From Candidatus Eiseniibacteriota bacterium (lineage in GTDB: Bacteria; Arandabacterota; Arandabacteria; JAGLYR01): DNA of 8,518 nucleotides. The stretch covers positions 1-8,518 of the forward strand of contig JAGLYR010000092.1 in NCBI GenBank assembly GCA_023132135.1. Direction: 5' to 3'. The notes under the pieces are model-generated. The model was given only the letters and a program-made list of their open reading frames with translations, was not told the DNA's origin and did no database searches. Numbering within the stretch: position 1 is the first letter of the stretch; each line of letters opens with the position of its first letter. The position numbers and the translations under genes were made by a program. Of this stretch, positions 967 through 8,325 are shown one piece after another.

Positions 967-983
967 CGTCCGTCTCCCGCGCT

Positions 984-1131
984 GTTAGCCCAACGAATGA
1001 ATCAGCGTCGCCATCATCCCGTTAGCCCAACGAATGAATCAGCGTCGCCATCATCTCGTTAGCCCAACGAATGAATCAGCGTCGCCATCATCCCGTTAGC
1101 CCAACGAATGAATCAGCGTTGCCATCATCTC
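984..1131. repeat. Four-copy 37-bp tandem repeat made from the 3' end of flgK
   Basis: Units start at 984, 1021, 1058 and 1095, exactly 37 bp apart. Units 1 and 3 are identical. Unit 2 differs from them at unit position 36, and unit 4 shares that change plus one more (T for C in the gcgtc/gcgtt segment). The rightmost unit is the genuine end of flgK: it encodes MMATLIHSLG and the TAA stop. The other three lie after the flgK stop. The C/T/C/T alternation at position 36 suggests a two-unit (74-bp) block was duplicated after the first duplication. Removing three units would leave an 18-nt flgK-flgL gap, similar to the other gaps in this operon. Because every copy carries a stop, changes in copy number would not alter the FlgK protein. 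Confidence 0.97.
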
Positions 1132-2469
1132 GTCAATCGTGGCGACCACCCGCGCCATTGCCTGGTACGCGTGCTGGTAGGAGAGCATGTACGCCATCTC
1201 CTCATCCAGGGACACGCCCGAGACTCCAAGGCGCTGGGTCTCAGCACCCAGGACCAGAAGTTCCTCCGCTTCCAGGAAGGACGTGGCCACCCGCGATTCC
1301 TGGCCGATTCTCCCCACGAGGGAACCGTAGAAATCATCGAAGCTGATTGAGCCGCCGACCATGGTGTTGGCCGTGGCGAGGTTTGCAATGGCCAACGCGT
1401 TCCGGCCATCTCCCACCTCACCCTCCGCCGACGCCGCGATGAGATCCAGGTTCGATGCGAGTGCAGGGTCTATCGCTATGTCGGCCGCCGTCACCCTCTC
1501 GGGATCAAAGAAGTTGTTGCCCGTCGACCCATCCAGACCGTAACCGGCCGAGTGCGCGCTGTTGATCCGGGAAACCAGCGCGCCCGCCAAGGCATCCAGA
1601 TCCGCCAGGTATCCGTTGACATACTCGTCCCGCGCTGTGATGTACCCTTCCATGAGCCCGCCTTCGATCAGCACCTCGCGACCCGTGCTCTTCCAGACCA
1701 CGGAGGTCGAATCGGTTGTCCCCCTGACAGACAGCTCCAGCTCACGATGGGTGTTGCCCTGGACCAGGACCTGGGAGTTCAGCCGGATAATGGTCGAGCC
1801 GTCGGAGGATTCCGTAACATCGACACTGATGATCTCCGAGAGCTCGTCGGTCAGGAGATCCCGCTCGTCACGAAGACCGCTCGCCTCGTGGCCTCCCACC
1901 TCGGCATCGATAATGACACCGTTGAGATCTGCAAGACGACCGGACAGCTCGTTGATACGGCTGATCTGAGCTCCGATTTCTTCGTTGAGACTCTGCTTGA
2001 GGTCCCTGAAATTCGCACTCAGGCGGTGAAACGTGCTGCAGAGCTCCTGGCCCCGGAGCAGAACAGCGCTGCGAGTTGCCGATTGCTCCGGATCATTGGC
2101 CAGATCCTGCCATGCGGACCAGAACTCGCCCATGACATCACTCAGGCCGGCGCCCGGCTCGTTGGTAATGGTCTCCACATTGGACAGGTAGTTCTGGATG
2201 CCCGCCCATTTTCCCAAATCACTCATGTGCGAACGGTAGAATTTGTCCAGAACAGCATCCCGCGCCCGCTCGATGTTCCGGACTTCCACGCCGGCGCCGA
2301 CATAGCCGTATCCGCTGTCCATTGCCGCGGCCGCCGCAACAACAGCCCGGCGTCGGGAGTAACCGGGGGAGTTCACATTGGCGATGTTGGTCCCGATCAC
2401 ACTCATCGCCAGCTGGTGCGTCTGAAGCGCCCGCTTGGCGATTTCCAGAGAGGCATTCAAGCTGATCAT
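1096..2469 (-). CDS. flgK: Flagellar hook-associated protein 1 FlgK (HAP1)
   Basis: This 457-residue protein is the first hook-filament junction component; it assembles on the distal hook end after secretion through the flagellar export channel. The N-terminus has the rod/hook/HAP signature, with QLAMSVIGTNIANVNSPGYS at 19-38. The C-terminus (420-457) has the FlgK pattern SLDEEMAYMLSYQHAYQAMA followed by RVVATIDEMMATLI. Both ends form the coiled-coil core in this family. At 457 residues it is shorter than the roughly 547 of enterobacterial FlgK, so the variable outer domain is probably reduced. ATG at 2467-2469 is preceded by GAGGG at 8 nt. It lies 46 nt after flgN, its likely chaperone gene. 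Its last 10 codons and stop are repeated three more times downstream. Confidence 0.96.
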   Translation of the reverse strand: MISLNASLEIAKRALQTHQLAMSVIGTNIANVNSPGYSRRRAVVAAAAAMDSGYGYVGAGVEVRNIERARDAVLDKFYRSHMSDLGKWAGIQNYLSNVETITNEPGAGLSDVMGEFWSAWQDLANDPEQSATRSAVLLRGQELCSTFHRLSANFRDLKQSLNEEIGAQISRINELSGRLADLNGVIIDAEVGGHEASGLRDERDLLTDELSEIISVDVTESSDGSTIIRLNSQVLVQGNTHRELELSVRGTTDSTSVVWKSTGREVLIEGGLMEGYITARDEYVNGYLADLDALAGALVSRINSAHSAGYGLDGSTGNNFFDPERVTAADIAIDPALASNLDLIAASAEGEVGDGRNALAIANLATANTMVGGSISFDDFYGSLVGRIGQESRVATSFLEAEELLVLGAETQRLGVSGVSLDEEMAYMLSYQHAYQAMARVVATIDEMMATLIHSLG

Positions 2470-8220: not shown

Positions 8221-8239
8221 CTACGGAGCTATCGCGCCT

Positions 8240-8325
8240 GTCGTCCCCGCGGAAGCGGGGACCCATTCACATATGCACGCTGTTCCAGCAACATCAAAAT
8301 GGGTTCCCGCGTGCGCGGGAACGAC
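8240..8325. repeat. Pair of inverted hairpin repeats (REP/BIME-like)
   Basis: Two 28-bp arms, 8240-8267 and 8298-8325, are inverted copies matching at 24 of 28 positions with a 30-bp spacer. Each arm is itself a hairpin: TCCCCGC/GCGGGGA with loop GGAA (8244-8261), and GTTCCCGC/GCGGGAAC with loop GTGC (8303-8322). The four differences between arms are two loop bases and one base pair (C-G in one stem, T-A in the other), so both stems remain intact. The core resembles the GTC(G/A)TYCCCGCG...GCGGGRA dispersed repeats seen in many bacterial genomes. Confidence 0.8.

Follow-up and report, generated by a model that had tools for sequence, protein, structure and literature searches.

The stretch of DNA analysed here (the window) is an entire contig of 8518 bp, belonging to an assembly of 3.4 Mb in 345 contigs. 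Its flgK and flgL genes encode hook-associated proteins and are separated by a gap of 129 nt (967–1095) that holds most of a tandem array of 37-bp units. If the three extra units of this array are subtracted, the gap measures 18 nt; the first-pass annotation had inferred a widening from 18 to 129 nt, and the coordinates agree.

TRF delimits the array at 984–1133, with a period of 37, 4.1 copies, 96% matches, no indels, and a score of 279. An exact 24-base core recurs four times, at 984, 1021, 1058, and 1095, whereas 200 shuffles gave no hit. Both results confirm the earlier reading of four 37-bp units at 984–1131 with two variable positions. One variable column is position 1120 of the plus strand, where T is present in the flgK copy only. 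The other comprises positions 1019, 1056, 1093, and 1130, which read C, T, C, and T on the same strand. With a unit of 10–100 bp, a head-to-tail arrangement, a fixed period, and an occurrence above chance, the array is a minisatellite. The unit is confined to one locus: searched against the whole 3.4-Mb genome, a 16-base core has four matches, all of them here. A dispersed element is ruled out by this single-locus occurrence, together with the lack of any viral hit.

Each extra unit contains a possible mini-ORF of 10 codons (ATGATGGCGACG...GGCTAA), oriented like the flanking genes. The ATG of each lies 4 nt past the preceding stop, which for unit 2 is the stop of flgK itself.

Table 1. Features of the flgK–flgL junction, with units listed in minus-strand (mRNA) order, and arrays with 35–40-bp units in the surveyed sequence
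Feature	Position	Strand	Unit (bp) and copies	Basis
flgK (hook-associated protein 1)	1096..2469	-		TIGR02492, E 1.5e-103 (NCBIfam)
flgL (hook-associated protein 3), 3′ end lost at contig end	1..966	-		TIGR02550, E 1.1e-39 (NCBIfam)
GGGAG, flgL ribosome-binding site, 7 nt before ATG, outside array	974..978	-		Sequence
Unit 1, true flgK 3′ end with TAA stop, GAG...GCA	1095..1131	-		TRF, sequence, C-terminus alignment
Unit 2, extra copy, GGG...GCG; possible 10-codon mini-ORF 1091–1059	1058..1094	-		TRF, sequence
Unit 3, extra copy, GAG...GCG; mini-ORF 1054–1022	1021..1057	-		TRF, sequence
Unit 4, extra copy, GGG...GCG; mini-ORF 1017–985	984..1020	-		TRF, sequence
Array, flgK/flgL			37	
Array, NHL-repeat protein end with TGA/next ORF	L182:3872		35 × 3.1	
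Array, HdrC-like end with TAA/HdrA	L121:11486		39 × 4.4	
Array, clpP/clpX	L138:2200		40	
Array, prmC/murA	L141:1012		38	
Array, PIP-synthase-like/INO1	L141:7550		39	
Array, ABC ATPase/N-terminus of following ORF, in frame	L112:17368		36	
Array, in-frame C-terminus of ORF overlapping prfA	L186:1137		39	
Array, in frame at IspD/IspF join	L136:3900		36	
Array, in frame within OYE-type gene	L204:6952		36	

Origin of the units

The FlgK C-terminus encoded in the rightmost unit (...ATIDEMMATLIHSLG) aligns with that of relatives (...TVIDNLMETIMSTL), which makes unit 1 the original; the earlier identification of the rightmost unit as the genuine 3′ end of flgK is thereby borne out. It had also been claimed that the FlgK protein is unaffected and that copy number alters only the spacing and the spacer RNA between the genes. 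These claims stand and extend to FlgL, as the first copy retains the FlgK C-terminus and stop, the flgL start lies beyond the array, and both reading frames are unchanged.

A search for genomes that share the genus, family, or order of this one found none, and the nearest used for comparison were four relatives of the same class. Their FlgK proteins are 40–42% identical to that of the window, and their flgK–flgL gaps of 14–19 nt match the 18 nt inferred here for a single unit. In a scan of genome contigs that covered 80 flgK loci, the nearest FlgK was 44% identical, and the gaps downstream of flgK were mostly 4–30 nt. None of these 80 other junctions showed a downstream copy of the flgK end above shuffle noise, compared with a score of 71 for the window. 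A candidate old duplication in Neobacillus niacini (L081) was rejected, as its score of 22 falls inside shuffle noise (maximum 25).

The near identity of the units supports the earlier view that the 3′ end of flgK underwent a recent tandem expansion. This expansion would have taken place in two steps. The first, a 37-bp tandem duplication across the flgK stop codon, can be read directly from the units, while the second, a duplication of the 74-bp dimer that yields four units, is proposed because one column alternates A, G, A, G. The order of events would be the 37-bp duplication, one substitution, the dimer duplication, and, in the flgK copy, a later synonymous change of GCG to GCA. Apart from the whole copies, the TRF span leaves only 2 bp of homology at the unit borders (150 = 4 × 37 + 2).

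Hairpin-driven slippage was considered as a source of the units and rejected, since the unit hairpins are ordinary and no stronger than those of shuffled units. Ku end joining was likewise rejected, since Ku is absent from the genome. Cas1 is encoded in the genome; no link to it is claimed because no inserted spacer sits between the units.

Arrays with 35–40-bp units across the genome

Arrays were sought with TRF and a shift-match scan in 100 stretches of the source genome (925 kb), which together with the window make up 934 kb, or 27% of the genome. Ten arrays with 35–40-bp units occur in this sample (35, 36, 36, 36, 37, 38, 39, 39, 39, and 40), nine of them at the boundary of a gene or domain, the genes being unrelated. 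Two, at the ends of the NHL-repeat and HdrC-like genes (L182:3872 and L121:11486), share the design of the flgK array, in which the end of the upstream gene is repeated with its stop and the downstream start is left intact. The remaining tandem-like arrays in the shift-match scan (units of 20–200 bp) have units of 24 bp or multiples thereof, and several weaker arrays of 21–32 bp were added by TRF. All arrays within genes have 3n units, and all non-3n arrays lie outside genes, in a sample with a coding share of 77% as judged from the gene calls of a simple script. Since this partition shows selection acting, the arrays are taken to be real DNA.

At the NHL-repeat array (L182:3872–3987), the ATG of the unit overlaps the preceding TGA (ATGA), which gives a chain of mini-ORFs reaching to ~9 nt before the next start. 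The 39-bp array upstream of HdrA (L121:11486–11676) can be read as a single in-frame leader ORF with 13-residue repeats such as NIDVGVFPGIVPV, and this ORF terminates within the HdrA ribosome site (AGGAGGTGAATG). The clpP–clpX gap (L138:2200–2276) is duplicated with a period of 40, right up to the GTG start of clpX.

Controls comprised 1.14 Mb from two relatives (G001 and G006) and 80 named loci. There, two of 13 tandem-like arrays fall in the 35–40-bp band, both representing one motif in G001. The excess over controls has a Fisher p of 0.003 without flgK, on small counts and with a band that was set after seeing the data, although it takes the flgK unit as its centre; when TRF arrays are counted more inclusively, p is only 0.04, with the band again post hoc. 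In the two G001 arrays (L217:13025 and L223:791), the motif TTTTTAGCTCCGACCCC is paired at a 36-bp spacing, much like a small dispersed element, and both were counted as controls despite this appearance.

The occurrence of 35–40-bp arrays at many unrelated junctions indicates a general mutational process. The flgK array is probably a young, protein-silent, and neutral intra-operon minisatellite that arose from such a process and was filtered by selection. Its primary duplication would stem from the same source as the other arrays of the 934-kb sample, a process producing 35–40-bp tandem duplications genome-wide, and subsequent changes in copy number would occur by slippage or recombination. 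Selection would tolerate the array since neither protein changes: the FlgK C-terminus and stop are complete in the first copy, and flgL has its ribosome site and start past the last one. The surviving duplications appear to be those that would do no harm, namely those that span a stop codon or a start region and those that keep the frame.

A narrower proposal is offered tentatively. The lineage may have a length-specific process that yields 35–40-bp tandem duplications genome-wide, which mostly survive at stop–start junctions within operons, the flgK array being one example. In that case, an enzyme (e.g., through paired nicks at a fixed distance) would determine the unit length, and flanking repeats would not.

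The array alone would be an ordinary young minisatellite, formed by a duplication across a stop codon that is invisible to both flanking proteins. Viewed alongside the genome survey, it samples a mutational spectrum. A narrow 35–40-bp band at unrelated loci would indicate a specific enzymatic source of bacterial tandem duplications, and such a process would give operons a steady supply of new spacers. The more interesting lead is this narrow band of unit lengths. Literature searches on short duplications in tandem at the ends of bacterial genes revealed nothing directly comparable.

Known intra-operon repeats and expression of flgL

The closest precedent for the flgK array is found in the intra-operon VNTRs of M. 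tuberculosis, and by analogy the array may work like one of these. For example, in the rnc–fpg1 VNTR (VNTR3239/ETR-F), tandem repeats of tens of bp with a 37-bp core widen a short gap between co-directional genes, which is 1–54 bp in other mycobacteria and 279–358 bp in the M. tuberculosis complex (PMC2734929). This VNTR is also lineage-restricted, begins near the upstream stop, and ends at the downstream start; its repeat length varies among isolates and is correlated with expression (PMC2734929). Its units are composite, with 37-bp repeats plus elements of 18, 16, and 26 bp, whereas the flgK array consists of plain 37-bp units copied from the upstream coding end.

Small ORFs were reportedly described within MIRU units by Supply et al. 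in 1997, and the extra flgK units likewise contain one, oriented like the genes on either side. The MIRU of senX3–regX3 in M. tuberculosis are, like the flgK array, intra-operon tandem repeats between co-directional genes (PMC4213456). However, MIRU are a dispersed family of 40–100 bp at 41 places (PMC2734929), whereas the core of the flgK unit is present four times at one locus, and membership of the flgK array in this family is rejected for that reason. A further difference is that the senX3–regX3 MIRU region has promoter activity, while none is predicted in the flgK array. In M. tuberculosis, promoters of dop and other genes contain phase-variable tandem repeats (PMC12817950), which resemble the flgK array in lying upstream of a gene and in having units of tens of bp. 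They alter promoter strength, whereas the flgK array is intra-operon and has no promoter-like site.

These systems bear on the earlier suggestion of a contingency locus, in which slippage would change the number of units and so tune FlgL relative to FlgK. In principle, near-identical tandem units are mutable when they lie within an operon gap, the expression of a downstream gene is correlated with the repeat number of an intra-operon VNTR in M. tuberculosis (PMC2734929), and promoter repeats are phase-variable in the same species (PMC12817950). However, when the flgK end, one to four units, and the flgL start were folded together, the flgL SD was predicted to be unpaired at 0.54, 0.53, 0.54, and 0.52, respectively, with opening energies of 14.2 to 13.7 kcal/mol, such that predicted accessibility of the start is flat. 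In addition, no promoter-like or terminator-like site was seen in 850–1300, and comparable arrays occur at many unrelated junctions. The tuning claim gains no support from these results, and a contingency locus is unlikely. A known regulatory RNA is not indicated either, the window having no match in Rfam. If FlgL is affected, the effect would be modest and would act through weaker translational coupling across the longer spacer (129 versus 18 nt).

Slightly less likely again is a chain of minicistrons, in which ribosomes finishing flgK would re-initiate across the units and so reach the vicinity of flgL, a model also suggested for MIRU. Re-initiation from unit to unit is possible in view of the three intact mini-ORFs and their 4-nt stop-to-start spacing, and the L182 units form ATGA-overlapping mini-ORFs. 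However, the flgK mini-ORFs are simply copied flgK codons, no good ribosome site precedes them to support re-initiation, and the final one stops 18 nt before flgL, which is the single-unit spacing.

It is very improbable that the extra units were created by the assembler or by contig joining: the assembly is fragmented and the 148-bp array is about the length of one short read, but the units differ at two columns, unit size and copy number vary across loci, and an artefact would not keep the frame in coding arrays and exclude non-3n arrays from genes.

Repeats of other kinds were also noticed. In the window, two GC-rich palindromes (CCCGCGGAAGCGGGGAC and TTCCCGCGTGCGCGGGAACGAC) lie at 8238–8325, behind the flg gene that comes first in the cluster, and TTCCCGCGTGCGCGGGAACGAC has two further exact-pattern matches elsewhere in the genome, like a REP element. 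Related short repeats on GCGAGAGC/GCGACAAGG, located at L113:6857, L129:3985, and L134:3120, constitute a dispersed low-complexity family.
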